In this document: piece by piece, positions 2,205 through 17,139 of the stretch
How the letters are laid out: each line of letters opens with the position of its first letter
Position numbering within the stretch: the first letter of the stretch is position 1
Source: a virus
Length of the DNA: 58,958 nt
Strand: one strand, 5' to 3'
Virus record (IMG/VR): IMGVR_UViG_3300032322_001673
Coordinates: 1 to 58,958 of that record
Notes under the pieces: generated by a model
Database searches by the model: none
Told to the model about the DNA's origin: nothing
The model's input: only the letters and a program-made list of their open reading frames with translations
Translations under genes and position numbers: made by a program

Positions 2205-2702
2205 TTAAATTTGCCCAGTCATTTGTTTCAAAGTTGACAAGATTGAAGTTACCGAACTTACAGTATCTAAATCATCTTCCTTAATGTACTGTATAACATC
2301 ATTATCGTCAACAATACAGAAGGTTCTTATTACCCTATCTTTGTCAGTATTTGCTTCTAACTTATGTGCCAAACTATATTGTTCTTGCGAATTGTCAGTA
2401 AACAGATGTAATGTAGGGGTTTCAACCTTACTTATGATTGACCAGGCCATGTTACTAAACTGCAGTTCCGTAGAACCTACAAATAACATGACTCCATTCT
2501 TTGCTAATTGTTCAGATATTTTATTAAATCCTACTAGTTCCTCTGGAAACACGTATGAAAAGTTATTTGGATAGAATACAAATATTTTCCAAACGCCTTC
2601 AAACGTCTTTTCGTTTACTAATTTTCTTCCATTTGGAGTAGGTTCATTTGGTTTAATACAATTGATAGCAAATGATCCTAACTTATCACCTATAATTTTC
2701 AT
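2205..2702 (-). CDS. peroxiredoxin-like protein lacking the peroxidatic cysteine
   Basis: 165 aa with the AhpC/TSA thioredoxin-fold layout: 'GDKLGSFAI' at the start, 'FEGVWKIFVFYPNNFSYVF', then 'LFVGSTELQFSNMAW'. It aligns along its length with the true AhpC at 3655-4188. The 'FVCPTE' active-site motif there is 'YVFPEE' here, so the peroxidatic Cys is F52. The C-terminal CAC resolving motif is also absent. It cannot work as a normal peroxidase. A structural, chaperone-like or partner role with AhpC is possible, or it is a diverging duplicate. It has its own start (AGGAAAA upstream) after the terminator at 2722-2742. Confidence 0.85.
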   Translation of the reverse strand: MKIIGDKLGSFAINCIKPNEPTPNGRKLVNEKTFEGVWKIFVFYPNNFSYVFPEELVGFNKISEQLAKNGVMLFVGSTELQFSNMAWSIISKVETPTLHLFTDNSQEQYSLAHKLEANTDKDRVIRTFCIVDDNDVIQYIKEDDLDTVSSVTSILSTLKQMTGQI

Positions 2703-2721
2703 TTATCATTTTCCTGTTATA

Positions 2722-2742
2722 TAAAAAGCCCCTTACGGGGCT
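2722..2742 (-). terminator. intrinsic terminator after ahpD
   Basis: AGCCCC (2727-2732), loop TTAC, GGGGCT (2737-2742). On the reverse strand it is followed by a T-run. It directly follows the ahpD stop codon and closes the AhpC-SGNH-AhpD unit. Confidence 0.9.
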
Positions 2743-2744
2743 GA

Positions 2745-3263
2745 TTAATTACTTAACACTCTTGCTACTGACGTTATAACTGCTGCTATTCGTCCAATGT
2801 CACGTAATTGTTCTACCGTGTATCCTTCTTTTTTAAGTGTTTCATAATGTGCTTTCACACAAAAATGGCACTTGCCTACAATACTTGCTGCTAAACTATA
2901 TGCTTCAAACCTTGCTTTGGTTGTGCCACCATGACTTGAAATTGCATTCATACGCAATTGTGCTGGTAAGCCTTTAAGATTTTCGTCATCAGCCATTTCA
3001 ACAAATGGATACCAAATGTTGTTTTGTGCCATCAAACTTGCTGCTGTTAATGCTGCGTCAGCCTCTTTACGGTCAGCTAATTGACTATGAACCCATGTCC
3101 AAAATTTGCTATTACCAGTTGCAAACGCTGCTGCAAGTGCCACTGCCTCTGCTTCTTCAACTGGTAATGTGCTACGCTTGATTACTGCATCTATGTTTAA
3201 TTTTGTATCCTTAGCATATTCAGGAATACTTTGTTCTTTTAATGCGTCTACCCATGCTGTCAT
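2745..3263 (-). CDS. ahpD: alkylhydroperoxidase AhpD
   Basis: 172 aa, the usual AhpD length. The N-terminus 'IPEYAKDTKLNIDAVIKRS' is close to the mycobacterial AhpD opening. The catalytic set is complete: E120, C132-x2-C135 (KCHFCVKAH) and H139. AhpD works in the cytoplasm as the disulfide-exchange partner that re-reduces AhpC, and has weak peroxidase activity itself. Its start overlaps the end of the SGNH gene by 4 nt, with AhpC two genes upstream, so phage AhpC and AhpD are co-expressed. A terminator follows immediately. Confidence 0.92.
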   Translation of the reverse strand: MTAWVDALKEQSIPEYAKDTKLNIDAVIKRSTLPVEEAEAVALAAAFATGNSKFWTWVHSQLADRKEADAALTAASLMAQNNIWYPFVEMADDENLKGLPAQLRMNAISSHGGTTKARFEAYSLAASIVGKCHFCVKAHYETLKKEGYTVEQLRDIGRIAAVITSVARVLSN

Positions 3264-3655
3264 TTTGTTAATGCTCCTAGTTGTTTATATCCTTTATATG
3301 TAGGATGTACCTTATCTGTAGATAGTTCAGGAATAATAACGAAAGTATCACCATAGTGCCTAGCAATCTTTTTTACTATTTCTTGTTTCTCTGGTTTAAT
3401 CGCAGGAACAATCCAAAACACACGATCAGAATTAACAAAGCTTCTTAATGCTACTAATTCTATTTCGGTATTTAAATGTTTAAAATCATTACTACCTAAA
3501 CTAATAATTGTAGCTTTAGCAGGTCTGATTTTTTTAACGTATGCATCATTCCAGTCTTTGCTGTTGATACCGCTTTGAGCATAAGCCACACATTCAGTGC
3601 GTATTTGGCTTACGCCCTTTGCTATACTATCTCCTAAGATAAGGCACTCTAACAT
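3260..3655 (-). CDS. SGNH/GDSL-type hydrolase (short)
   Basis: 131 aa with the SGNH hydrolase blocks: 'ILGDSIAKG' (nucleophile S10), a Gly in 'AQSGIN' (about G29), 'SLGSNDF' (N56) and 'DKVHPTYKGY' (D114, H117). This is a compact esterase/lipase/acetylhydrolase fold without signal peptide. The substrate could be acetylated glycan, lipid or a small ester. It overlaps both neighbours (TAATG with ahpC, ATGA with ahpD), so translation is coupled. Why an SGNH enzyme sits between the two peroxide-detoxification genes is unclear. Organic-peroxide or lipid-ester metabolism is a guess. Confidence 0.8.
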   Translation of the reverse strand: MLECLILGDSIAKGVSQIRTECVAYAQSGINSKDWNDAYVKKIRPAKATIISLGSNDFKHLNTEIELVALRSFVNSDRVFWIVPAIKPEKQEIVKKIARHYGDTFVIIPELSTDKVHPTYKGYKQLGALTK

Positions 3656-4188
3656 TATAGTGTCTCGCCACCAACTGTGCGATTACATGCACACAATTCA
3701 CCTGTTTGTAGTGCATCCAATACACGCAATGTTTCTTCTGGGCTACGACCAACGTTTAGATTGTTGACTGTAACATGTTGAATAACATTGTCTGGGTCAA
3801 CGATGAATGTAGCACGAAGTGCTGCACCTGCTGGAGCAAAGAAAATACCAAGCTGATTGATCAAACTTGATTCGCCACGCTGCGTATCTGCAAATTGCAC
3901 GTGAGTAATCTTAGCAAGATCAGGGTGAGCTTTTTGCCATGCAAGTTTACAGAACTCGTTGTCTGTAGAGCCTGTTAGCAAAACAGCATCACGGTCTTTG
4001 AAATCATTTGCCAACTTGTCATAGGCAACGATTTCAGTTGGACATACGAATGTGAAATCTTTTGGGTAGTAAACTATAACTTTCCATTTACCTTCGAAAC
4101 TTGTGTCAGTAATATCAAAAAACTGATCACTGCCTGGGTTGACGCCTGTTACTGCGAACTTCTCAATTTTATCACCTACTGTTTTCAT
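3655..4188 (-). CDS. ahpC: peroxiredoxin AhpC
   Basis: 177-aa 2-Cys peroxiredoxin. The peroxidatic motif 'DFTFVCPTE' has C49, and the C-terminal 'ELCACN' carries C166 and C168. The double-Cys tail is typical of AhpC proteins that partner with AhpD instead of AhpF, in agreement with the ahpD gene two genes downstream. It reduces H2O2 and organic peroxides in the cytoplasm. The start is supported by AAGGAG 6 nt before the ATG. First gene of the unit, with promoter elements expected in the divergent gap to 4299. Confidence 0.95.
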   Translation of the reverse strand: MKTVGDKIEKFAVTGVNPGSDQFFDITDTSFEGKWKVIVYYPKDFTFVCPTEIVAYDKLANDFKDRDAVLLTGSTDNEFCKLAWQKAHPDLAKITHVQFADTQRGESSLINQLGIFFAPAGAALRATFIVDPDNVIQHVTVNNLNVGRSPEETLRVLDALQTGELCACNRTVGGETL

Positions 4189-4298: not shown

Positions 4299-5210
4299 AT
4301 GAATACCTTTGCATTAAATCCAAACTTATATGATGTTGTTTTTCTAAGTTATGATGAACCAAACGCTGAAGAAAACTATCAACATTTACTTTCACTAAAA
4401 CCAAAAGCAAAAAGAATTGATGGAGTTAAGGGCAGTGATGCTGCGCATAAGGCCGTCGCGGATATAGTTAAGACAGATAGAGTTATCATTGTAGATGGTG
4501 ACAATAAAATTGCTACAAACTTTTTTCGCTTTAATGTTTACACCAAACCACATTTTGATTGGACTGATTACGTTTTTAGTTACAGCAGTTTTAATCCTGT
4601 AAACAACAATTGCTATGGTAATGGTGGTATTAAGTGCTGGCCTGTGCATTTATTAAAGGAAATGCGTACACATGAAGCAGGTGATAGTGTTGATTTTCAG
4701 CTTGACAAGTACCTAGAACTAAACAGAATCGGCAGTGAAACAATTATAAATCAAAGTCCACAACAAGCATTTCGTGCAGGCTTTAGAGATGGTATGAAGT
4801 TACTAGATAGCGGAGAAAAAGATTTTGAAAAAATGGATTGGCGCAACCGTGAAAGACTTTATAATTGGATGCATTTAGGCAGTGATGTTAAGAATGGATT
4901 ATGGGCAATATATGGTGCAAGACTAGGAGCATTTTTGTTGCTTAGAGGGTATGATATAAGAGTACTAAATGACTTTAGCCAATTAGATGAAATATTTGAA
5001 GTCTATAGCAGAATAGCAACAGCCAATCTACAATTAGAATGCGACAAGTTGGGGAAAACATTTAATAGCAAATATGTGCATGATGTTTTAAGTAGTGACG
5101 AAAGTATGGAAATCAAAAAGAACTATATTCCACCAAAACGCAGTGCAGAAGAATTTTTAGCAGTTACAAGTAAGGAAGATATAGAACAATTTTATGCAAA
5201 TACCATTTGA
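4299..5210 (+). CDS. glycosyltransferase-like protein (GT-A type), first gene of the radical SAM operon
   Basis: 303 aa. The opening 'YDVVFLSYDEPNAEENY' and 'RVIIVDGDNKI' around residues 60-70 resemble the nucleotide-sugar-binding half of GT-A glycosyltransferases seen in aquatic phages, including a DxD-like 'DGD'. The rest is helical and ends in 'EDIEQFYANTI'. The acceptor is unknown. Its 3' end overlaps the first radical SAM gene by 17 nt, so it belongs to the same operon. Related GT-like proteins occur in the heptose block. The function call rests on fold-like motifs only. Confidence 0.55.
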   Translation: MNTFALNPNLYDVVFLSYDEPNAEENYQHLLSLKPKAKRIDGVKGSDAAHKAVADIVKTDRVIIVDGDNKIATNFFRFNVYTKPHFDWTDYVFSYSSFNPVNNNCYGNGGIKCWPVHLLKEMRTHEAGDSVDFQLDKYLELNRIGSETIINQSPQQAFRAGFRDGMKLLDSGEKDFEKMDWRNRERLYNWMHLGSDVKNGLWAIYGARLGAFLLLRGYDIRVLNDFSQLDEIFEVYSRIATANLQLECDKLGKTFNSKYVHDVLSSDESMEIKKNYIPPKRSAEEFLAVTSKEDIEQFYANTI

Positions 5211-6186
5211 GAAAATAGTAAGGTTTGGTCAGCACACAATGCTGGAACATCCTCTCTTTTCCGTGAGTTGGATACTAGGCAGATTCTGTAATTATAAATG
5301 TAGTTATTGTTGGCCATACGCAAATACTGACACTCCCGATCATCAATCACTGGATGTTTACAAACACGCAATAGATCAAATTAAATTGCAAGCAAGGCAA
5401 AATAAATTTACTGATTTTCACTGGTCGTTTAGTGGCGGAGAGCCAACCGCTTATAAACATTTACATGAATTAATTAAACATTTAGAAGATGGCATAACAC
5501 CATATCAAAGCATTCACATGACTACCAATTTAAGTCCTAGTAAGAAATGGTGGGCTAAGTGGTGTAGTAACACCGACCTTCTTCAACGTAGATCAATAAC
5601 TGCAAGTTATCATAGTGAATTTGCAAATGAGAATGAGTTTGCAGAAAAATGTTTATTCTTAATGGGTGAGAATGTTTATGTGACTATTAATCAAGTTATG
5701 GTTCCTAATCAGTTCTATGAGTTATATGAAAGATGTCAGCGTTTTCATGATAAAGGGATCAATGTTACACTAAAGCCACAAAGCAATGAAAGTGCAAATG
5801 CAATTGTAGATGGATATACACCTGACATGATTGAGATAATGCAGAACGGATTCCCGCAAAAAGTTAATGAACAAGAATTATACCAAATACGATTATACGA
5901 TTCTGATAATGTAGAATATAAATTTGATCAAGCCGAAAGATTTAATGCTTTTGGTTTCAACCAATTCACCAATTGGCATTGCAATAGCGGCTATCAAAGT
6001 GTTATAATAAGAGGTTCGGAGGTGAAGCGTGGTTACAGTTGCAGCGAAAGACATTTAGGCACTTTGCAGCAAGGGTTTAGTTTATTTACCAAACCTACAA
6101 TGTGCATCACAAACCGATGCGTGAGTAGTGCTGACAGTAAAATACCAAAAGAAAAATGTCACATTGATAGTTTTAATAATGAATAA
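5194..6186 (+). CDS. radical SAM protein 1 with C-terminal Cys cluster
   Basis: 330 aa. C32-x3-C36-x2-C39 (RFCNYKCSYCW) binds the SAM-activating 4Fe-4S cluster, and 'SFSGGEPT' (79-84) binds SAM. A second Cys group in the last 75 residues (WHCNSGY, YSCSERH, MCITNRC) looks like a SPASM/twitch-type auxiliary cluster domain. Such enzymes often modify peptides or proteins. It overlaps the upstream gene by 17 nt and the next by 8 nt. The substrate is unknown. Confidence 0.85.
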   Translation: MQIPFEKIVRFGQHTMLEHPLFSVSWILGRFCNYKCSYCWPYANTDTPDHQSLDVYKHAIDQIKLQARQNKFTDFHWSFSGGEPTAYKHLHELIKHLEDGITPYQSIHMTTNLSPSKKWWAKWCSNTDLLQRRSITASYHSEFANENEFAEKCLFLMGENVYVTINQVMVPNQFYELYERCQRFHDKGINVTLKPQSNESANAIVDGYTPDMIEIMQNGFPQKVNEQELYQIRLYDSDNVEYKFDQAERFNAFGFNQFTNWHCNSGYQSVIIRGSEVKRGYSCSERHLGTLQQGFSLFTKPTMCITNRCVSSADSKIPKEKCHIDSFNNE

Positions 6187-7564
6187 AATACCAACATACA
6201 TCAAACTTATTGAAGAAAAGACAGGGTCACCTACCTTTTGCGTTTTACCATGGATTCATTTAGCAACCAGACCCAATGGTGATGCAAGACTGTGTTGCGG
6301 TAGTAATGCTAGTCAAGCAACGAAAGGAATACTAGATGCTGGTCTAGTTAGAAAAGAAAATGGAGAAGTTGCTAACTTCGGAAAAGACACACTACAACAA
6401 GCCTTTAATAATGTTTACATGCGTGATGTAAGGAAAACAATGCTAGAAGGCAAAATACCTTCTAGTTGCACTAAGTGTTTTGAAGAAGAACAAAATGGCA
6501 TTCTAAGTAAAAGAATTTGGGAAATGTATGAATGGGATAAAGATGGAATAGATTTTAAACAACTTATTGCTGACACAAAAGAAGATGGTGAAGTTCCTAC
6601 TGCTATACGATACTTTGACATTAGATTAGGACACACCTGTAATTTAAAGTGCGTTATGTGTACACCGCACGACAGTTCAAAGTGGGTACAAGATCATAAG
6701 AAAATTATTCCTATTACAAAAAGCGAGACCGTGTTGCAACAGATAGCATGGGATCAATCCACATTTGACAATACCTGGTATGAGAAATCAGAGTTTTGGG
6801 AAGAAGTGTTTGAACAGATTCCTAATATACAACAAATGTATTTTGCAGGTGGCGAACCTTTAATGATTAAGGAACATCATAAATTCCTAGAGGAAATCAT
6901 TAAGCGAGGGTATGAAAAACAAATAACACTAAGATATAACAGTAACGGTATATTTGTAGATGATTATATCATTGACATGTGGAGTAAATTTAAAAAGGTT
7001 AAATTTGCATTCAGTATTGATGCAGTCAATGAAAGAAATCACTACATAAGATATCCTGCAGAGTGGGATATTATTGTTAAAAATTTACATAAATTAGACA
7101 ACACACCTGACAACATACATATAGGAATCGCATGTGCTGTGCAAATTTTTAATATCAAGCATATCATAGATTTCGCTAAATGGAAAATACAACAAAACTT
7201 TAAGAAAATAAACAAATACCAAGTAGAAAACTACCTAGTGGGCGGCGGTATTTTGAACATGCATATGTTGTATATACCAACCTTCTTAAGTGCAAGAATG
7301 TTACCCGAAGAAGATAAAAAAGAATTAAGAAATCAATTTATAGAATTTAAAAATTGGTTATGGGATAACTATACTCAGGATGATGTATTTTGGAATTCTA
7401 GTCCATATGGTTGGCAAAGATGGGAAGGTATATTAAAATTTGTAGAGGCAGAAGATCATAGCCACTTGTTGCCAGACTTTAAGGAATATGTTTCTAATTT
7501 AGACGTAATTAGAGGCACAAATTCAAAACAAATATTTCCAGAATTAGCCAGTTTACTAAAATGA
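6179..7564 (+). CDS. radical SAM protein 2, twitch-domain type
   Basis: 461 aa from the ATG at 6179, which overlaps the previous stop by 8 nt. A GTG at 6128 in the same frame would add 17 residues overlapping the neighbour and is less likely. An N-terminal Cys-rich part (FCVLPWIHL, ARLCCGS, SCTKCFEE; C21, C39, C40, C97, C100) precedes the radical SAM core C154-x3-C158-x2-C161 (HTCNLKCVMC) and 'FAGGEPL'. Auxiliary cysteines before the core are the layout of 'twitch domain-containing' radical SAM proteins known from aquatic phages. Reaction unknown. Confidence 0.85.
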   Translation: MNKIPTYIKLIEEKTGSPTFCVLPWIHLATRPNGDARLCCGSNASQATKGILDAGLVRKENGEVANFGKDTLQQAFNNVYMRDVRKTMLEGKIPSSCTKCFEEEQNGILSKRIWEMYEWDKDGIDFKQLIADTKEDGEVPTAIRYFDIRLGHTCNLKCVMCTPHDSSKWVQDHKKIIPITKSETVLQQIAWDQSTFDNTWYEKSEFWEEVFEQIPNIQQMYFAGGEPLMIKEHHKFLEEIIKRGYEKQITLRYNSNGIFVDDYIIDMWSKFKKVKFAFSIDAVNERNHYIRYPAEWDIIVKNLHKLDNTPDNIHIGIACAVQIFNIKHIIDFAKWKIQQNFKKINKYQVENYLVGGGILNMHMLYIPTFLSARMLPEEDKKELRNQFIEFKNWLWDNYTQDDVFWNSSPYGWQRWEGILKFVEAEDHSHLLPDFKEYVSNLDVIRGTNSKQIFPELASLLK

Positions 7565-8514
7565 AAATTATAAAAATAAAAAATTTGTCAACAGACCATC
7601 TCAGTGTAGAATTTGTTTTAGGTAATGTTTGTAACTATAAATGTCACTACTGCTTTAAGGGATGCAATGAGGGAACTCATAGATGGCCGAATCACGACAT
7701 TGTGCTAAAAAACATGAAGTCACTTTTTTCTTACTATCGATCTCAAGGAAAAACAAATATTGATTTAAAAATCATAGGAGGGGAAACAACACTTTGGCCC
7801 TATTTAGAACATTTTGTTAAAGATATAAAACAAGTAGCAAATGTTTTTGTTAGAGTCAGTACCAATGCTAGTAGAACAATTGACTATTGGAATGATAAGT
7901 CACATTTATTTGATGAAATTACAATTAGTGTTCATAATGAGTTTGCAAATTTAAATCACATTATTAAAGTTGCAGATTTAATTTATAGTAAGAAACAAAG
8001 TAATCTTTATGTGTTTGTTTTGATGGATCCATACAATTGGAAAAAATCGATAGAATGCTTTGATTACTTACATTCAAATAGTGAAGGATGGTTTTTATCT
8101 CCCCAACCAGTATTGTTTGATAATGTTACAACCTATTCACAAGAACAGACAGAATATCTTACTACAGTTAAAAAAAGAGTATGTGACGATGTAAAGAAAG
8201 TAAAGCCAAAATATGCAATGATGTTCACGCAAGACGGAACTGTAGAACCCTATGACTATAAAAAAATTGTTCTTAATAAAGCTAACAATTTTTACGGTTA
8301 TAAATGCAATATTGGAATAGACAGAATTTATATTGACATTGAAGGTGAGATACGAGGAGCTTGCGGTGAACAATTGTTTGATGGAAATTTAAATATAAAA
8401 GATCAAAATTTTGAAGAAAAGATAAAGTTATATAAAAATCTTGAACCTGTCATATGTAGTAAGAATGTTTGTGGGTGCGGTGCTGAAATAATGTTAGATA
8501 AAGAATTAATATGA
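7561..8514 (+). CDS. radical SAM protein 3
   Basis: 317 aa. Core motif C24-x3-C28-x2-C31 (NVCNYKCHYCF) with a further C35, and a GGE-type SAM site 'IIGGETT' (71-77). The C-terminal region has cysteines in 'YKCNIG', 'RGACGEQ' and 'VICSKNVCGCG', consistent with one or more auxiliary clusters. The ATG overlaps the previous stop by 4 nt. It is similar in layout to radical SAM proteins 1 and 5, which suggests duplication and specialisation within the operon. Substrate unknown. Confidence 0.85.
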   Translation: MKIIKIKNLSTDHLSVEFVLGNVCNYKCHYCFKGCNEGTHRWPNHDIVLKNMKSLFSYYRSQGKTNIDLKIIGGETTLWPYLEHFVKDIKQVANVFVRVSTNASRTIDYWNDKSHLFDEITISVHNEFANLNHIIKVADLIYSKKQSNLYVFVLMDPYNWKKSIECFDYLHSNSEGWFLSPQPVLFDNVTTYSQEQTEYLTTVKKRVCDDVKKVKPKYAMMFTQDGTVEPYDYKKIVLNKANNFYGYKCNIGIDRIYIDIEGEIRGACGEQLFDGNLNIKDQNFEEKIKLYKNLEPVICSKNVCGCGAEIMLDKELI

Positions 8515-9104
8515 AAATTGACTTAGAACATATAATGTTTTGGATGGATGCTATACGTAATAGCGAGGATCCAAAACGTACATTAGAAAGTTTTTGGAAG
8601 GGTCAACTACGTAGCAAAGAATGGCTTATAAAAGAATTAGGAGTTTTTGTAGGTAAACCAGTATGCATCGACATTTTTGGTGGTTGGAACGGAGTATTGG
8701 CTAGTATGCTATTTCATGCTCCTTATCCAATTAAATCAATTCGTAGTATTGACATAGACCCAAAATGTGAAGAAATAGCAAACACAATGAACAAGATAGA
8801 GTTAATGAAGGGTGTTTTTCATGCAGTAACCGCGGACATGTGCAATTTACGTAGTGATGCGGATATTGCTATTAATACTAGTTGCGAACACATAACTCAA
8901 GATCAATATGAACAATGGCTGACTTGTTTGCCACAAAATAGTTTACTTGTTCTACAAAGTAACAATTATAAAATTTATGAACATATTAGAATAAGCGAAG
9001 GATTAGATGACTTTGTAGAGCAATCACAATTATCAAAAGTTTTATATTGTGATAAATTAGACTTGCCTTTATATGACAGGTACATGATCATAGGATACAA
9101 ATAA
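8511..9104 (+). CDS. class I SAM-dependent methyltransferase-like protein
   Basis: 197 aa. Motif I appears as 'CIDIFGGWNGVLASM' (52-66), followed by an acidic ribose-binding 'IRSIDIDPK' (78-85). The remaining motifs are weaker ('DIAINTSCEH', 'LLVLQSNNY'). This is a Rossmann-type methyltransferase fold of unknown specificity. It sits among five radical SAM genes, overlapping by 4 nt upstream and 1 nt downstream (TAATG), so it probably acts on the same substrate. Confidence 0.7.
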   Translation: MKIDLEHIMFWMDAIRNSEDPKRTLESFWKGQLRSKEWLIKELGVFVGKPVCIDIFGGWNGVLASMLFHAPYPIKSIRSIDIDPKCEEIANTMNKIELMKGVFHAVTADMCNLRSDADIAINTSCEHITQDQYEQWLTCLPQNSLLVLQSNNYKIYEHIRISEGLDDFVEQSQLSKVLYCDKLDLPLYDRYMIIGYK

Positions 9105-10204
9105 TGTTTAAATTTTCAGAATTAAAATCTATACATTTAGAAATAAGCACACGCTGTCAAGCAAGCTGTCCTATGTGCCCAAGGAAATATCACGGTGGTG
9201 TTGAGAATACAAATCTTAAAATAGCAGATTGGACTATCCAAGAATTTAAACATATATTTACGGATGAACTATTGAATCAACTAGATATGATTTACTTTTG
9301 TGGTAATTATGGTGATCCAATTATGAATGATGATTTGATATCCATGTGCCAATACATTAAAGACAAAAAACCCAATATGCAAGTTAGAATACATACCAAT
9401 GGTGGCGCACGTTCAACAAAATGGTGGGTTGATTTATTTAACAGTCTTAATGAAAATCACTTAATTTATTTTGGAATAGACGGTCTAGAAGATACAAATC
9501 ACATTTATAGAATTGGAGTTAATTTTGATATTACGATTCGCAATGCACAAGCATTTATAGATGCGGGAGGCAAAGCTGAATGGGTTTTTATTAAATTTAA
9601 ACACAACGAACATCAAACAGAGTTAGCAGAACAATGTAGTAAAGACATGGGTTTTGTGAGTTTTACCATAAAGAACACTACTAGATTTATTGGGGAAAAT
9701 AGATATAGTGTAGTAGATGAAAGCGGAAACATTTTATATTATCTTGAACCACCAACTGATAATCAAGTTGTGTTTATATCACCTGAACAAATAAAAAGAT
9801 CAGGTGAAATTATTAACAGTTCTAAAATAAGTTGTTATGTGCAAAATTTAAAAGAAATTTATATTGATGCACACAAAAATGTTTTTCCTTGCTGTTTTTT
9901 AGCAAGTGCCCCTTACCACTATCAACAGAAAGAAGAACCTACTGATCCATTTAGAAAAATGATTTACAATTTTCATTATAAGGTATTATCCCAATATCAT
10001 AATTTAGTAGAAACGTTGGGGAGTATAGAAAATATACACGCTATGAATAAACCAATCAAAGATATCATTAGTAGCACAGAATGGCAAACAGTTTGGGATC
10101 ATCACTGGAACGTTGAAAAATTATATACCTGTGCTAGGGTATGTGGGAAAACAGGTAACTCTAAACCTAAAGATCAATTTGTTAAGAGAGTAAAAAATGA
10201 TTGA
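9104..10204 (+). CDS. radical SAM protein 4
   Basis: 366 aa. C18-x3-C22-x2-C25 (STRCQASCPMC) binds the 4Fe-4S cluster, and the SAM-binding loop is 'YFCGNYGDP', divergent from GGE. A C-terminal 'VFPCCFLAS' and 'LYTCARVCGKT' supply auxiliary cysteines. The CxxSCPMCPR form is typical of peptide- or protein-modifying SPASM/twitch enzymes. It overlaps the next gene by 8 nt. Substrate unknown. Confidence 0.85.
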   Translation: MFKFSELKSIHLEISTRCQASCPMCPRKYHGGVENTNLKIADWTIQEFKHIFTDELLNQLDMIYFCGNYGDPIMNDDLISMCQYIKDKKPNMQVRIHTNGGARSTKWWVDLFNSLNENHLIYFGIDGLEDTNHIYRIGVNFDITIRNAQAFIDAGGKAEWVFIKFKHNEHQTELAEQCSKDMGFVSFTIKNTTRFIGENRYSVVDESGNILYYLEPPTDNQVVFISPEQIKRSGEIINSSKISCYVQNLKEIYIDAHKNVFPCCFLASAPYHYQQKEEPTDPFRKMIYNFHYKVLSQYHNLVETLGSIENIHAMNKPIKDIISSTEWQTVWDHHWNVEKLYTCARVCGKTGNSKPKDQFVKRVKND

Positions 10205-11270
10205 TTTTCACACCATAAAAAATGATGGCTCAAACTCATTTGTGATTACTTGGGATTTAGGTAGGCGTTGTAATTTTGATTGTAGTTATTGCCCAGTGCA
10301 TAGACATGATAATTTCAGTAGTCACGCTAGTTTGATAGAGTTAAAAAACACATGTAATTTCTTATTTGAGTATATTTCATTAATATCGCAACATCGACAT
10401 AACAAAGATTTTTATATTAGTTTTACAGGAGGCGAACCTACTGTTAATCCCAATTTTATAAAGTTTGCGGAGCATTTAAATAATGAATGGAAAAATAAGT
10501 TTGATAAAGATATCAAAATAAAATTAGATGTGACTTCAAATGGTGCGATGAGCGAAAAAATAGCTACAAGTATTATTAGAAATTTTGATCATGTAACAAT
10601 AAGTTACCATGCTGAATCAGATGAAATAACAAAAAAGAATGTAATAGATAGGATATTACAATTACATCAAGGTGAAGTAGACATGAAAGTAAATGTTATG
10701 ATGCATGCCAAACATTTTGATGAGTGTGTAAAGGTATGTAACATTTTAAAAGAAAATAATGTTAAGTATATACCTAGACCAATTGGTGAAGATCCTGACA
10801 GTATGCTTGCCACCGCTCACAAATATTCTGATGAACAAAAACAATGGTACAGTGACTTTTTTAACACACCAATTACACCCACCACAAGACCTTGTTGCGG
10901 TGGAAGAAGTTTTACATTATGCAACAATGAAGAATCGATAGAAACGAAGGTAATAGGATTTAGAAATTTTAAAGATTGGTATTGTAGTGTAAATTGGTAT
11001 TTCTTACATGTTGAACAGCAAACAGATTTAGTCTATCACCATCAAACCTGTCAGGCCAATTTCAACGGGGAACGTGGGAGTATCGGAACCATAACAAATT
11101 ATGCTGATATTATCAGTAATCTAAAAAACAACCTTAACAATAAACAAATGCCCACTATTGTTTGCCCTAATAAATTATGCGGATGCGGGTTATGTATTCC
11201 TAAAAGCAAACACAAAGATCAATATTTAGTAAACATAAACAATACAGTTAATCAATCCATATTATCATGA
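10197..11270 (+). CDS. radical SAM protein 5
   Basis: 357 aa. C25-x3-C29-x2-C32 (RRCNFDCSYCP) and 'SFTGGEPTVNP' form the radical SAM core. The C-terminal third has many cysteines (RPCCGG, LCNNEE, WYCSVN, TCQANF, VCPNKLCGCGLC) suggesting one or two auxiliary clusters. It overlaps the following oxygenase gene by 4 nt. Like proteins 1 and 3 it begins with a short N-terminal strand followed by 'xWDLGRxCN'. Substrate unknown. Confidence 0.85.
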   Translation: MIDFHTIKNDGSNSFVITWDLGRRCNFDCSYCPVHRHDNFSSHASLIELKNTCNFLFEYISLISQHRHNKDFYISFTGGEPTVNPNFIKFAEHLNNEWKNKFDKDIKIKLDVTSNGAMSEKIATSIIRNFDHVTISYHAESDEITKKNVIDRILQLHQGEVDMKVNVMMHAKHFDECVKVCNILKENNVKYIPRPIGEDPDSMLATAHKYSDEQKQWYSDFFNTPITPTTRPCCGGRSFTLCNNEESIETKVIGFRNFKDWYCSVNWYFLHVEQQTDLVYHHQTCQANFNGERGSIGTITNYADIISNLKNNLNNKQMPTIVCPNKLCGCGLCIPKSKHKDQYLVNINNTVNQSILS

Positions 11271-11983
11271 AAATTAACGCACAAGATATATTACAAGAAA
11301 CATATGATGTTTTCATTAAAGCTGGATTTAAAAAAATACTTGATAACAGTATTACAATATCTGAAATAGAGTATTATAAATTACATACAGCTTTTTTGGT
11401 TCCTACTTCAATTAAAATTGATACTGAATTATTTGTGGAACAAGTTAAAGAATTTAAATTCCAACAATGGGGAAAAAATCACACTCATTTGCCTAGATAC
11501 GGATTGGCATTAGTAAATAAAAGCGGAGAACTAATTGAGGATGATCCAATTAATGGTAGTTTAATGACATGGAATAAAGATCATCCTAATGATCCTATTA
11601 TTGAAACTGATTGTTTGACGCCTACACCAGTAATGAAGATATCATCCCTAGAGCCATTAAGGATATTTGACGATTACTGGACTAGAAGTAATATACTTAA
11701 ATGGAATAATGGGGCTATGTTTTTACCACATATTGATACAGTTGTACCAAGCATGTGGCTTAGGTTATGGATGAGTACTGAAGGGCTAACGGTTAGATAT
11801 TACGATGAGACATCGGAAGAATTAAAAGAAATAGAGTACGAACCCGGACGAGTTTATTTAATAGATACTTCAAAAATTCATGATGCATACTCAACAAATG
11901 ATAATGTTTACCAATTGTTTTTAAGTGTACTTACGACTGCGGATTATTTAATTTCTTCTGTAATTCTTCCCACGCAAATCTAA
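11267..11983 (+). CDS. probable Fe(II)/2-oxoglutarate-type oxygenase
   Basis: 238 aa. 'FLPHIDTVVPSMWLRLWM' (153-170) with H155 and D157, then 'RVYLIDTSKIHDAYS' with H205, gives the His-x-Asp...His iron triad on a jelly-roll-like region. This resembles the AspH-like hydroxylases at 15666-16759. It is the last gene of the plus-strand operon. Its last 53 bases overlap the 3' end of the convergent PP-loop gene, and no terminator is visible. It may hydroxylate the product of the radical SAM enzymes. Confidence 0.65.
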   Translation: MKINAQDILQETYDVFIKAGFKKILDNSITISEIEYYKLHTAFLVPTSIKIDTELFVEQVKEFKFQQWGKNHTHLPRYGLALVNKSGELIEDDPINGSLMTWNKDHPNDPIIETDCLTPTPVMKISSLEPLRIFDDYWTRSNILKWNNGAMFLPHIDTVVPSMWLRLWMSTEGLTVRYYDETSEELKEIEYEPGRVYLIDTSKIHDAYSTNDNVYQLFLSVLTTADYLISSVILPTQI

Positions 11984-12782
11984 CGGTATCGTTTCTATAA
12001 ACAGTTTTATCTTCAATACCTAATTTAGCAAAAGCATCATATCTCTGCTGACAATTAAAGCAAGTTCCACAATGGATATAATTTTCTCTTACTGAGTTAG
12101 TCACGCACGAAATAGTTTGGTATGCTAAATCTAAATATCCTAACTGTATGTACAAATCAAGAACTTCACTTTTATTAAGGGTATCAAAAGGTCTTAAAGT
12201 TACTTTTCGATTGAAATCTGATCTTAGCATTGGATAAACTAGACCCGAAATTTCCAAATCTTTTATGTATTCGGTAAACGTACCTGTAGGTACGTGAAAT
12301 TCTTCAATAACATCTCTATATTTTTCGTAATTACTATAACACTTTTGAACAATACTTTCATGTGTTGAATTTTTATCTTCTTTGAATTCTGCTACGTTAA
12401 AGAATAATTTAGTAAAGCCCCACATGGTAAATTCAATATTGTGTGTATTTTTCATATATTCAAATATTTGGTAACTCCACGTTTGAATGTCTTTTTTATG
12501 TAATTCAATATCTACAGGAATATAATGTACAGGATGTCCCAATATTTCGCTAGCGTTATCTACGTTTATTTTTACATTCTTGTTTGATTCAGGATTACTG
12601 ACTGTGAACATATCATCAGAATACACTAATACAACATTTTTAGGACCATATTTGTCTAACGCAATTTTGGCAATCAAAGTGGATTCAAGTCCGCCACTTA
12701 TTGCTACGCCTGCTTTACCCCATGACAGTGTAGGGAAATGATCATCAATATGATATTCGATGTTAGTTGGTTTAAGTATCAT
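11931..12782 (-). CDS. QueC-like PP-loop ATPase
   Basis: 283 aa. The PP-loop 'AISGGLEST' (28-35) binds ATP as in N-type ATP pyrophosphatases (consensus SGGxDS; here Glu replaces Asp). A C-terminal Cys set C226, C238, C241, C244 (IHCGTCFNCQQR) matches the zinc site of QueC. QueC makes 7-cyano-7-deazaguanine (preQ0), and phages use relatives for deazaguanine DNA modification. QueD, QueE, FolE or DpdA are not in this window. It could instead be a specialised amide-forming enzyme. It overlaps the downstream end of the oxygenase gene and has a 4-nt overlap with the desaturase upstream. Confidence 0.75.
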   Translation of the reverse strand: MILKPTNIEYHIDDHFPTLSWGKAGVAISGGLESTLIAKIALDKYGPKNVVLVYSDDMFTVSNPESNKNVKINVDNASEILGHPVHYIPVDIELHKKDIQTWSYQIFEYMKNTHNIEFTMWGFTKLFFNVAEFKEDKNSTHESIVQKCYSNYEKYRDVIEEFHVPTGTFTEYIKDLEISGLVYPMLRSDFNRKVTLRPFDTLNKSEVLDLYIQLGYLDLAYQTISCVTNSVRENYIHCGTCFNCQQRYDAFAKLGIEDKTVYRNDTVRFAWEELQKKLNNPQS

Positions 12783-13507
12783 TTTTTAAATACCTTTTCT
12801 AATACGTATCCTAATAAATCATATTTGTGAAATCTCACATTACCTGGATATCGATGATGATTTTCATGATAGGCTTCGCCTCCTATAAAAAAATTAACTA
12901 GAAATTTGTTAGAAGGAACGTCACGACTCCAATCATGAGTCCACGTATTTATAAAACCCTCAAAATGAAATACTATTGCAATTGGTGCCCAAAAAATTGC
13001 TAGGGCTAGGTTGAAAGGTAAAATAAATAATGAACCAATAATTATAGGTAGATAAATCCAATAATAATAACGATGCCATAATACATGATAAGTTCGCAAT
13101 AAGCTACCGGCAAACTTAGGATCTATTTTACTAAAGCTATATCCAAATAATTGTACATACCATGTACCCATTATTTTCGGGCTATGAGGATCTTTATGAG
13201 TGCCTTGGTACTTATGATGTTGTCTATGAGTTGCAGTCCAACTTAATGCACTACCTTGCATACTAAATCCTGCGATAAAGCATCCCAACATTTCTAACCA
13301 TTTTGGAACTTTAACGGCTTGGTGTGAAACTACTCTATGATAAAATGTGCTGATGCCTAAAATAGCAACAACATAATGCACACCTAAAGCAATTAATAAC
13401 ATTTGCCATTGTAGTGTTGCAATCAAATAAATTAGCGCAACATGCCCTAACAATATCCAAAAATATCCGTATAGTCTACTAAAATTTACTTCCTCAAATC
13501 TTTTCAT
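12779..13507 (-). CDS. membrane fatty-acid desaturase A
   Basis: 242 aa with four hydrophobic membrane segments and the three His boxes of acyl-lipid/acyl-CoA desaturases: HRVVSH (57-62), HRQHH (94-98) and HENHH (214-218), binding a di-iron centre. It inserts a double bond into acyl chains at the membrane using O2 and an electron donor. Third of three tandem desaturases, overlapping its upstream neighbour by 14 nt and the PP-loop gene by 4 nt. Regioselectivity cannot be read from sequence alone. Confidence 0.92.
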   Translation of the reverse strand: MKRFEEVNFSRLYGYFWILLGHVALIYLIATLQWQMLLIALGVHYVVAILGISTFYHRVVSHQAVKVPKWLEMLGCFIAGFSMQGSALSWTATHRQHHKYQGTHKDPHSPKIMGTWYVQLFGYSFSKIDPKFAGSLLRTYHVLWHRYYYWIYLPIIIGSLFILPFNLALAIFWAPIAIVFHFEGFINTWTHDWSRDVPSNKFLVNFFIGGEAYHENHHRYPGNVRFHKYDLLGYVLEKVFKK

Positions 13508-14228
13508 TTGTCCAACCTAATTTAGTTATTAAATATCCTGCAGGGTCATATTTTGTGTAATTTAATTTTGGATTTGAGTGATGGGATGCATGATATATAC
13601 CATCAGAAAATATTAAAGGCCAATATAATTTAGCAATGTTTCTTGCTTCACCGTTTTTGTGACTAATAACATTAACAAAAAGATTTGTGTTAAAAATCAT
13701 AAATGCTACAGGAATTGCCCAAAGCGTCATAAACCATACAAATGGCAATAATAAAAATAATATTAAATTTCCTAATATGATGAAATGAATTTCATATTTA
13801 CTTAGAAATAAAAAATAAGAATCTCTAAGTCTATCTATACCTCTTTTTAATTGTGCCTCATGAAAACGAGAACAAAAAATGATATAATACCATGATTTAT
13901 ATTTAGGACTATGTGGATCGTTTTCTGTATCTGTATAATGATGATGTGTTCTATGCCATGCTGCCCATGTTATTGGCGTTCCAATTAACGCTAACACACT
14001 TATAGTTGCTAATATGTTCTGAACAAATTTAGGAGGATTCCATAAATTATGGCTAGCCCAACGATGACAAAACAAACTTTGAACTACATCAATCATAAAC
14101 CAATAACTGATATAACCTATAATTAATTGATACCATGTTGCATGATAAAGCCAAACAGGAAATAACAATAGATAAGTTATGAACAAAAACGTTGATGTAT
14201 ATTTGGATAGTGTAATTTGAGAAATCAT
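13494..14228 (-). CDS. membrane fatty-acid desaturase B
   Basis: 244 aa from the ATG at 14228, which forms an ATGA overlap with the upstream stop; the frame extends further upstream but over the neighbour. His boxes HRWASH (55-60), HRTHH (92-96) and HASHH near the C-terminus, with several long hydrophobic segments. Same family as desaturases A and C but clearly diverged, so the three probably differ in position or substrate rather than being recent copies. Confidence 0.92.
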   Translation of the reverse strand: MISQITLSKYTSTFLFITYLLLFPVWLYHATWYQLIIGYISYWFMIDVVQSLFCHRWASHNLWNPPKFVQNILATISVLALIGTPITWAAWHRTHHHYTDTENDPHSPKYKSWYYIIFCSRFHEAQLKRGIDRLRDSYFLFLSKYEIHFIILGNLILFLLLPFVWFMTLWAIPVAFMIFNTNLFVNVISHKNGEARNIAKLYWPLIFSDGIYHASHHSNPKLNYTKYDPAGYLITKLGWTNEKI

Positions 14229-14983
14229 TTTTTTATCATCCAAATAATCATTGCGGGCAGATCCACTTCCCACCAACGTTCCCAATTACTCCAATTATAA
14301 GGTTTAGCATGATGATTATTGTGCCATCCCTCACCTAAGGCTAAAATATTTGCGATCCAACTATTTCGGCTTTCATCATGTCTTAAGTCATACGTTTTGT
14401 ATCCATGTCTATGAGCAATAACAATGATAGAACTTGTAGAGTGCAATACAATACATGCAGGAATACTATACACAAATATAACGAACCATGGATTAATACA
14501 AAATAAAATGAAACAGTATAACAATATAATTTCTAGATAATAGTTATGTAAAAATTTTTGAAATTTATCTTTTCGTAAATCTCTCACTAATTTTAAATCT
14601 AATTTTACTAAGTTCCATAGTCCAAACCATGCTCTAAAATTTCCTATTAGGTGGGGGCTATGTGGATCCCCTGCCTTTTCACAACTACGGTGATGTTGTC
14701 TATGAATTGCTACCCATGCTAAAGGACTACCTATTGTAGTAACTACACCAATAATACTTAAAGTTTTTTCCCAAAATTTTGATGTCTTAAAACTTTTATG
14801 GGAAAGATATCTGTGATATCCAACTCCTACACCCATAGGACCAATTATAAGCCAAGTTATAAGAGATATTACTAGGTACATATATTGTCCTGTCGTAAAC
14901 ACAAAGGCAAATCCAATCATAAGCAATAAATGATTTATGATCTGCATCCCTCTAACTAATTGATTATGTGTAATTTTATGCAT
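14225..14983 (-). CDS. membrane fatty-acid desaturase C
   Basis: 252 aa. His boxes HRYLSH (57-62), HRQHH (94-98) and HNNHH near the C-terminus; long hydrophobic segments around residues 15-50 and 145-175. The order of boxes and the length fit delta-9-type desaturases. It starts directly after the stop of the upstream gene (TAA then ATG). The three desaturases together suggest that the phage changes unsaturation of host membrane lipids, or makes an unusual acyl chain. Confidence 0.92.
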   Translation of the reverse strand: MHKITHNQLVRGMQIINHLLLMIGFAFVFTTGQYMYLVISLITWLIIGPMGVGVGYHRYLSHKSFKTSKFWEKTLSIIGVVTTIGSPLAWVAIHRQHHRSCEKAGDPHSPHLIGNFRAWFGLWNLVKLDLKLVRDLRKDKFQKFLHNYYLEIILLYCFILFCINPWFVIFVYSIPACIVLHSTSSIIVIAHRHGYKTYDLRHDESRNSWIANILALGEGWHNNHHAKPYNWSNWERWWEVDLPAMIIWMIKK

Positions 14984-15665: not shown

Positions 15666-16190
15666 ATGCACAAAGAAAAATTTATAGACAATTTAATTAA
15701 TAATTGGCAAACTATATCAGAAGAATACAGTCAAGTTAAAAAAACAATTCCATTGTATGATTTTGATGAGAAACCTAAGTACACTCCTGATTGGAGAGCC
15801 GTAACACTTTGGTGGAATTATAAACCATTGCCTCCTTTTCAAAAACAATTACCCAAAACAACTGAGTTAGTTACACACGGACCTAGTCATCGTGCTACTG
15901 GATGGTTAATATTAAATCCCCATTCCAGAACTCCTGAACATAATCATTTAGATTGGGGACATAAAATCATTGTTCACATTCCAACATATATACCTGAAGG
16001 TGATGTAGGATTTTACGTAAATGGTAACTTATACCGTTGGAAAATGGGAGAAATCTTTGCGTTTGATTGCTATAACAATCATTATGGATTTAATAATACT
16101 GATGAGGCTAGATCAATAATGGTAATGGATTTTGAATATGATGAATGGATAGATGTATTAAGACCTTATATGCGCATGGAAAAACAGTGA
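15666..16190 (+). CDS. aspartyl/asparaginyl beta-hydroxylase-like oxygenase
   Basis: 174 aa. The jelly-roll core matches the Asp_Arg_Hydrox pattern: 'LNPHSRTPEHNHLDWGHK' with H92/H94, 'VPEGD'-like 'IPEGDVGFYVNG', 'RWKMGEIFAFDCYNNHYGFNN' with H139, and R149. AspH enzymes are Fe(II)/2OG dioxygenases that hydroxylate Asp/Asn or, in related bacterial enzymes, lipids or small molecules. First gene of a two-gene plus-strand unit between two minus-strand blocks. Substrate unknown. Confidence 0.82.
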   Translation: MHKEKFIDNLINNWQTISEEYSQVKKTIPLYDFDEKPKYTPDWRAVTLWWNYKPLPPFQKQLPKTTELVTHGPSHRATGWLILNPHSRTPEHNHLDWGHKIIVHIPTYIPEGDVGFYVNGNLYRWKMGEIFAFDCYNNHYGFNNTDEARSIMVMDFEYDEWIDVLRPYMRMEKQ

Positions 16191-16759
16191 GATTTATAGA
16201 AAAAATTAATTTTACCGCTGATGTTAATCAAATGATTAATGATTTAAATTTGTTTATATCTAGAAACCCATGGCCAAATACTACGTTCATGTATAATAAT
16301 CAAAAATATCATGCTAATCAATTAGGTCTTACTTATCGTCCTAATGCAGATTATCCATTAGGGGATGCAGGCGGTAGCTTATACGATCCTGTAACCAATT
16401 CATTCACTAGCAGTGAAACAGACTTTACTGAATGGACTGATGTAGAGCCTTATACAAAAAACATAATAGAACAATTCAGCACTTTCGTAGATTCTAAATT
16501 TGGGAGAATTCGCTATATGCGATTGATGCCTAAAACAGGATTAAGTGTACACGCTGACTTTGAATGTAGATACCATTATGTTTTAGAAACAAACAAATAT
16601 GCATACTTTGGTGAAGCAGTTAGCGACAATGACTTATCTGCTAAATGTTATAATATACCAGCAGATGGTTCTTTTTATAGAGTAGATACTACCAAAGAAC
16701 ATTTTGTCTATAATGGTGGTTGGGAGCCACGCATACATTTAGTTATATGTTCTGCTTAA
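16187..16759 (+). CDS. second AspH-like oxygenase
   Basis: 190 aa from a GTG at 16187 that overlaps the previous stop by 4 nt. An in-frame ATG at 16145 would add 14 residues read out of frame from the neighbour, so I prefer GTG. 'MRLMPKTGLSVHADFE' (H122, D124), 'TTKEHFVYNGG' (H172) and R182 give the HxD...H...R set of the Asp_Arg_Hydrox jelly-roll. Diverged from the adjacent 15666-16190 enzyme. The two may work in sequence or as a heterodimer. Confidence 0.75.
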   Translation: MRFIEKINFTADVNQMINDLNLFISRNPWPNTTFMYNNQKYHANQLGLTYRPNADYPLGDAGGSLYDPVTNSFTSSETDFTEWTDVEPYTKNIIEQFSTFVDSKFGRIRYMRLMPKTGLSVHADFECRYHYVLETNKYAYFGEAVSDNDLSAKCYNIPADGSFYRVDTTKEHFVYNGGWEPRIHLVICSA

Positions 16760-16776
16760 GATTAAGCTTGTTTTTT
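16754..16776 (+). terminator. probable terminator of the oxygenase pair
   Basis: GCTTA (16754-16758), loop AGAT, TAAGC (16763-16767), then TTG and six T on the plus strand. It spans the stop codons of both the plus-strand oxygenase and the convergent iscU. The stem is short (5 bp). Confidence 0.5.
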
Positions 16777-17139
16777 CTTATAATCAGCAATAGCAGACTT
16801 TATAGCATCTTCCGCCAATATTGAGCAATGAATTTTGACCGGCGGTAAAGCCAACTCCTCTGCAATTTCCGTGTTCTTAATTGCATTTGCTTCTGCAAGA
16901 GTTTTTCCCTTAAGCCAAGTCGTGACGAGCGAACTACTAGCAATCGCCGACCCGCAGCCATACGTTTTAAATTTCGCATCGGTGATAATTTCATTTTCTA
17001 CCTTTATTTGTAGTTTTAAAACATCCCCACACGCAGGCGCCCCGACAAGACCTGTACCGACTGATTCGTCATTCATGTCAAGGCTACCAACGTTGCGTGG
17101 ATTTTCGTAATGATCTAATACTTGTTGTGAATATGACAT
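16762..17139 (-). CDS. iscU: iron-sulfur cluster scaffold IscU
   Basis: 125 aa, full IscU length. All three cluster-binding cysteines are present: C37 (APACGD), C62 (YGCGSA) and C105 (KIHCSIL). The LPPVK motif (98-102) that binds the HscA chaperone is also there. IscU assembles Fe-S clusters in the cytoplasm with host IscS. AGAGGA precedes the ATG. It ends the hydrolase/DUF2452 unit, and no iscS, hscA or fdx is visible. It probably supports the phage's five radical SAM enzymes or other Fe-S proteins. This is inference. Confidence 0.95.
   Translation of the reverse strand: MSYSQQVLDHYENPRNVGSLDMNDESVGTGLVGAPACGDVLKLQIKVENEIITDAKFKTYGCGSAIASSSLVTTWLKGKTLAEANAIKNTEIAEELALPPVKIHCSILAEDAIKSAIADYKKKQA

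Follow-up and report, generated by a model that had tools for sequence, protein, structure and literature searches.

The conserved core of a viral operon with five radical SAM genes is also found on chromosomes of some Bdellovibrionota

The window analysed here is a 58,958-nucleotide (nt) stretch of DNA from an uncultured freshwater phage, IMG/VR record IMGVR_UViG_3300032322_001673, which carries at positions 4299–11983 an operon of eight genes; we label their proteins A to H in order, five of them being radical S-adenosylmethionine (SAM) proteins. The operon has a core, B plus E and usually F, and this core has a counterpart in Bdellovibrionota. These two points are new; multi-radical-SAM modules in T4-like phages were already known. 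Our tentative reading, which we place a little short of an even chance, takes the operon as the centre of a viral island of modular make-up, homologous to the Bdellovibrionota set; the island would make or modify an unusual sugar or glycoconjugate, most probably a glycan of the host surface. The eight genes are:

A, 4299–5210, plus strand: glycosyltransferase-like protein with a DxD motif (VDGDN)
B, 5194–6186, plus strand: SPASM/twitch-like radical SAM enzyme of the core; four of its C-terminal cysteines are invariant
C, 6176–7564, plus strand: radical SAM protein with an N-terminal twitch domain, NF033640
D, 7561–8514, plus strand: accessory radical SAM enzyme
E, 8511–9104, plus strand: partner of B in the core, with the fold of a class I SAM-dependent transferase (similar to methyltransferases or aminocarboxypropyltransferases)
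F, 9104–10204, plus strand: radical SAM enzyme, third core gene
G, 10197–11270, plus strand: accessory radical SAM enzyme
H, 11267–11983, plus strand: cupin-type Fe(II)/2-oxoglutarate (2OG) oxygenase-like protein, HxD...H

Successive open reading frames (ORFs) overlap by 17, 11, 4, 4, 1, 8 and 4 nt. An earlier note on this DNA had described eight plus-strand genes with overlaps of 1–17 nt, which is exact, and five distinct radical SAM proteins with CxxxCxxC cores. Each of these five indeed has one intact motif: C32/36/39 in B, C155/159/162 in C, C24/28/31 in D, C18/22/25 in F and C25/29/32 in G. The order A-B-C-D-E-F-G-H recurs in L015 and L018 (such labels denote related loci; the viral contigs are all metagenomic), and the diverged L044 reads A..B-C-E-F-G-H, without D. 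L001 and L048 have no D between C and E. The ratio of non-synonymous to synonymous substitution rates (dN/dS) of the operon genes relative to L015, L018 and L002 is mostly 0.04–0.18, with 0.30 for E relative to L018, and we conclude that the genes are maintained under purifying selection. The allele of E has apparently been swapped by recombination, because its dN relative to L015 is 0.35 while those of F, G and H are below 0.05. Judged from the sequence, the gene arrangement is neither chance nor decay.

A scan of viral contigs with B returned 564 relatives, from which 80 loci were kept (81 with the window). E is present at 79 of these 81 loci, F at 68, C at 41, D at 34, A at 28 (about a third) and G at 12; E directly follows B in 46. 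In the reverse scan with E, B was found at 48 of the 52 loci that have at least 2.5 kb of upstream sequence. These associations were counted without a background of T4-like contigs lacking B. The relatives carry between 3 and 19 radical SAM genes per contig. A 72-amino-acid (aa) homologue of translation initiation factor IF-1 (PF01176, E = 1e-17) is encoded on the opposite strand near B in freshwater viruses, at L036:3227–3445 (minus strand) and about 31 other loci.

A second, marine clade of B became visible in a scan with the B protein of L099, which gave at least 593 stretches in viral contigs. E lies within 8 kb of B in only 5 of 82 cases in this clade; on the large contigs tested it is present in eight of nine, mostly about 13–30 kb from B by coordinates, and over all large viral contigs with B it is present on 14 of 15. 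The islands of the marine relatives hold genes for an AMP-binding ligase, TauD, nitroreductase-like and short-chain dehydrogenase/reductase (SDR)-like proteins, a possible pyridoxal phosphate (PLP)-type enzyme and B12-binding radical SAM proteins. The widely conserved set is B, E, F and C. Conservation of the eight-gene order, which the earlier note had proposed to examine, holds among close relatives and gives way beyond them to this smaller set. The same note had named inactivated Cys motifs, and genes unrelated or scattered in relatives, as findings that would speak against its proposal; the motifs proved intact, the genes are not unrelated, and their scattering is incomplete. Its multi-step modification pathway is borne out in that a real multi-gene enzymatic pathway is supported.

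The core is also found in bacteria. Of the 15 loci obtained when 84,980 genomes were scanned with B, 13 lie in metagenome-assembled genomes (MAGs) assigned to Bdellovibrionota (one via a phylum search). The contigs are up to 1.6 Mb long, and on inspection of the sequence their flanks are chromosome-like, with genes resembling those for seryl-tRNA synthetase, primase and polyphosphate kinase. B is clustered there with C, F and A homologues and often with one of E as well, and homologues of G are present in L090 and L212. The B matches L098 (an Acidimicrobiaceae MAG) and L099 (a Gammaproteobacteria MAG) were not accepted as bacterial, because both contigs have many radical SAM genes and L099 has a T4 portal gene; they look viral. 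In a tree of B, the freshwater viral sequences that were sampled make up a clade separate from that of the Bdellovibrionota; the marine-virus-type L098 and L099 fall inside the Bdellovibrionota side with moderate support.

B occurs in a minority of the phylum, 22 of 369 Bdellovibrionota genomes. E is found in 37 (20/22 genomes with B versus 17/347 without, p = 6e-21) and A in 21 (17/22 versus 4/347, p about 1e-21); these p values overstate the evidence, because kinship among the genomes was not corrected for. Family-2 glycosyltransferases (GT2) are enriched at the Bdellovibrionota B loci: they are present at 9 of 23 (17 proteins in 369 kb) and in 1 of 20 random windows (1 in 400 kb; p = 0.011), or at 17 of 34 when E-centred loci are added (p = 7e-4), the random windows coming from six genomes of the same phylum and the GT2 model having been trained partly on proteins of the tested loci. 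At L239, two GT2-like genes, C, E, F, A, a membrane protein and a UDP-galactopyranose-mutase-like flavoprotein lie close together. In three proteins of B loci, a GT2 domain is fused to a region with a CxxxCxxC motif, a candidate radical SAM domain by its motif that profiles do not confirm (best E = 0.08). In two Bdellovibrionota genomes, E adjoins a repeat protein of WLPNEVRK type (28-aa-type repeats) encoded by 78-bp tandem repeats (L211:11135–11997 and L213:6–595).

Four of the five radical SAM proteins (B, C, F and G) score above the cut-off of the Pfam Radical_SAM model (PF04055) and D falls just under it (27.6 versus 29.5 bits), so that all five combine the motif with the domain, D marginally for the latter. 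Invariant extra cysteines are present in B (C263, C283, C304 and C309; 47 aligned sequences) and F (C263, C264, C343 and C347; 44 aligned sequences), a pattern as expected for putative auxiliary iron–sulphur (Fe–S) clusters. The earlier note had proposed a search against radical SAM subfamilies and phage databases. This search placed C in the NCBIfam family NF033640 (395.7 bits against a cut-off of 170, E = 2.5e-118, positions 1–397 of 398), whose reaction is not assigned, but left B, D, F and G outside that family (all below 50 bits) and far under the cut-offs of the other NCBIfam subfamily models that they match. One of these is the prokaryotic viperin model NF038283 (cut-off, 180 bits), to which B, D and G are weakly similar; D scores highest with 48.9 bits, and all scores lie far outside membership. 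The structure model of B (pLDDT, the predicted local distance difference test, 83) matches the folds of MoaA, EpeE and anSME. The best profile match of F among solved structures is BlsE, a cytosylglucuronate decarboxylase (E = 1.5e-6), and BtrN is also matched; F aligns with both of these sugar-modifying SPASM/twitch enzymes, but the similarity is weak and confined to its N-terminal part (about residues 8–188).

The names methyltransferase, glycosyltransferase-like protein and oxygenase given earlier to E, A and H can be kept only in softened form. A has its DxD motif, and Glycos_transf_2 is matched by two of 11 aligned members. E and H have no Pfam match of their own. The AlphaFold model of E (pLDDT 94.6) matches the folds of many methyltransferases, and residues G57, G58, G61, D81 and D83, corresponding to a SAM-binding glycine loop and acidic residue, are invariant or nearly so. 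The top Foldseek match is the nicotianamine synthase MtNAS (E = 2.5e-10, template modelling (TM) score 0.62), but the sequence identity is 14% and a profile comparison with PDB sequences did not match nicotianamine synthase. Many plain methyltransferases come next, at about 1e-9; on the strength of the model we therefore call E only a class I SAM-dependent transferase, with no specificity assigned. A match of E to a PDB entry named 'Hemagglutinin' (E = 0.001) was taken as chance. H shares the residues H155, D157 and H205 (HxD...H) across at least 12 of 13 sequences compared, making it a candidate cupin-type Fe(II)/2OG oxygenase-like protein.

Several genes near the operon may be connected with it:

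I, 11931–12782, minus strand: QueC-like PP-loop ATPase, convergent with H
12779–13507, 13494–14285 and 14225–14983, minus strand: three consecutive fatty-acid-desaturase-like membrane genes adjoining the operon
15666–16190 and 16145–16759 (together 15666–16759), plus strand: two Asp/Asn β-hydroxylase-like oxygenases
16762–17139, minus strand: IscU-type Fe–S scaffold (NifU_N, E = 8.6e-52)

I also follows H in L015, L018 and L044; it scores 32.1 bits in Pfam and far under the cut-off of TIGR00364, the NCBIfam QueC model. QueE, QueD, FolE and DpdA were not identified in the scanned parts of the window (part of the ORFs of a fragmentary genome). Two of the three desaturase-like genes were scanned and both match PF00487; desaturases recur near B in relatives. 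The Asp/Asn β-hydroxylase-like kind recurs in related islands, and related families adjoin B in marine viruses and Bdellovibrionota. The IscU-type scaffold is a possible supplier of Fe–S clusters to the radical SAM enzymes. The window also encodes a PfkB kinase, a cytidylyltransferase-like protein, an epimerase and a family-25 glycosyltransferase (GT25), the kinase and nucleotidyltransferase genes resembling the kind used for heptose activation.

Elsewhere in the window, a single 7937-aa ORF (33745–57558, minus strand), very large for a phage, shows on inspection RCC1-like repeats with interspersed LamG-like segments, and is likely to be an adhesin or tail-fibre protein. A block at 2205–4188 (minus strand) adjoins the operon and encodes two AhpC-like peroxiredoxins, a CMD/AhpD-like and a GDSL-like protein; the AhpC-like peroxiredoxin block is kept upstream of A in close relatives. 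The T4 late-promoter-type motif TATAAATA occurs at 12946, 15604 and 33712, always on the minus strand, and is rarer than chance (3 observed versus 11.5 expected); two of the three lie just upstream of minus-strand genes and none upstream of the operon. A T4-type portal protein is absent from the 59-kb window fragment and was found on the larger relatives G002, G003, G396, G397 and G398.

The earlier note knew of no matching system in phages, a view that three published reports do not support. The T4-like Campylobacter phages CP220 and CPt10 have 11–12 radical SAM genes, including an interchangeable five-gene module of unassigned function (Timms et al. 2010, PMC2853527). A marine T4-like environmental genome has 12 radical SAM genes together with the Fe–S carriers ATC or IscU (Nishimura et al. 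2017, PMC5332604), and radical SAM cassettes lie in hypervariable regions of pelagimyophages (2020, PMC7029224). Our operon resembles the CP220 and CPt10 modules in its set of radical SAM genes, but the relationship is remote: F is 21% identical to a CP220 protein, and G is 25–35% identical to CP21 and CPt10 proteins over part of its length. No homologue of B or E turned up among 50,697 phage records (E ≤ 1e-5), no phage record gave one of A at the thresholds applied, and the window DNA matches no isolated phage. With tblastn, C finds only proteins of 23–30% identity, in two Vibrio phages and one marine single-cell virus. The marine T4-like genomes resemble the window in their many radical SAM genes and Fe–S carrier; in the available portions of the marine and pelagimyophage papers, however, genes are counted and no B–E–F core or chromosomal counterpart is defined. 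We found no description of the core or of the Bdellovibrionota link in the literature searched, which left out most subscription journals and all bioRxiv preprints, and nothing relevant emerged when the literature was searched for radical SAM clusters of Bdellovibrio.

What, then, might the pathway make? The enrichment of GT2 genes, the layout of L239, the GT2 fusions, the profile match of F to the nucleoside-sugar enzyme BlsE and, in the window, the heptose-activation-type genes, epimerase and GT25 favour glycan tailoring, and a glycan, one of the substrates considered in the earlier note, is plausible. We infer the chemistry and the benefit to the phage as follows. The SPASM/twitch-type enzymes B, F and C would carry out C–H chemistry on a sugar or sugar-linked substrate, such as dehydrogenation, deoxygenation, epimerisation or C–C bond formation. 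E would move a methyl or 3-amino-3-carboxypropyl group from SAM, and A would transfer a sugar. D, G and H, with the convergent QueC-like ATPase, may add lineage-specific steps, and the viral IscU would supply Fe–S clusters. The changed surface could block superinfection or reshape the infected cell. Several points weigh against this reading. The evidence points to no specific substrate, and the host of the virus is not established. Radical SAM matches below subfamily cut-offs cannot separate sugars from peptides or nucleotides, and the nearest folds of B include the peptide-modifying EpeE and anSME. The GT2 model was in part trained on the very loci under test and the random windows represent six genomes, while the fusions are putative radical SAM proteins by their motif. 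Finally, the desaturases, the hydroxylases and the marine AMP-ligase, TauD, nitroreductase-like and B12-radical SAM genes fit a small metabolite equally well.

Such a diffusible or membrane-bound product made during infection, be it secondary-metabolite-like, a lipid or derived from an amino acid (a signal or metallophore, for example), with glycosylation as only one tailoring step, is somewhat unlikely in our estimate, and the marine islands, with their ligase and the TauD, SDR-like, PLP-type and other genes listed above, keep it in play. The best fold match of E would suit it, as nicotianamine synthase forms a metal chelator by aminocarboxypropyl transfer, but many ordinary methyltransferases match almost as well. 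Moreover, we noticed in the window neither a non-ribosomal peptide synthetase or polyketide synthase nor a transporter or an obvious enzyme for building a scaffold, and the Bdellovibrionota core sits among glycosyltransferases. The same chromosomal setting speaks against nucleotide or nucleobase modification, be it hypermodification of phage DNA (deazaguanine-like) or an antiviral or anti-host nucleotide (viperin-like). We consider this very unlikely. In its favour, the QueC-like ATPase adjoins H; B, D and G are weakly similar to viperin; and BlsE, the enzyme that F resembles, has a cytosine nucleoside sugar as its substrate. Yet the viperin and QueC scores are far under their cut-offs and the companion enzymes QueE, QueD, FolE and DpdA did not appear in the parts scanned.

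Twitch/SPASM enzymes commonly act on peptides, many of the NCBIfam near-hits are peptide maturases, and B shares its fold with EpeE and anSME. The target could be a structural protein of the phage, a surface protein of the host or a ribosomal peptide whose gene lies elsewhere, and the 7937-aa repeat protein is a possible candidate. We nevertheless regard modification of a protein or peptide as distinctly unlikely. The earlier note had seen no precursor peptide gene, and in agreement with this there is no plausible, gene-like conserved small ORF on the same strand near the radical SAM genes at 158 viral loci; the small conserved ORFs considered were on the opposite strand (IF-1 and an AbrB-like-looking family) or were antisense or tRNA-region artefacts. 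The Pfam scan matched no PqqD domain, that is, no recognition element (RRE) of ribosomally synthesised and post-translationally modified peptides (RiPPs), so the operon has neither a linked precursor gene nor an RRE domain to mark RiPP maturation. Pilin-like genes lie near some Bdellovibrionota loci, but prepilin was rejected as a substrate, since B loci show no enrichment (2/23 versus 1/20 random windows).

Glycan tailoring thus remains our preferred reading. A broader claim would be that a dedicated radical SAM pathway (the core B, E, F and C, with A) is common to Bdellovibrionota and aquatic T4-like phages, that it modifies a surface glycan or glycoconjugate in a way that forms a new class, and that it has passed between bacteria and viruses and been remodelled by swaps of accessory radical SAM genes; taken as a whole we hold this to be doubtful, if by no means far-fetched. 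It has been known since 2010 that some phages carry a dozen radical SAM genes, to which no function was attached; the core and its chromosomal counterpart provide a small, testable gene set (B, E and F) and a cellular setting. Because B is very common in aquatic viruses (564 and at least 593 matching stretches for its two clades) while neither B nor E appears in the phage records, abundant viral chemistry may be going unseen.

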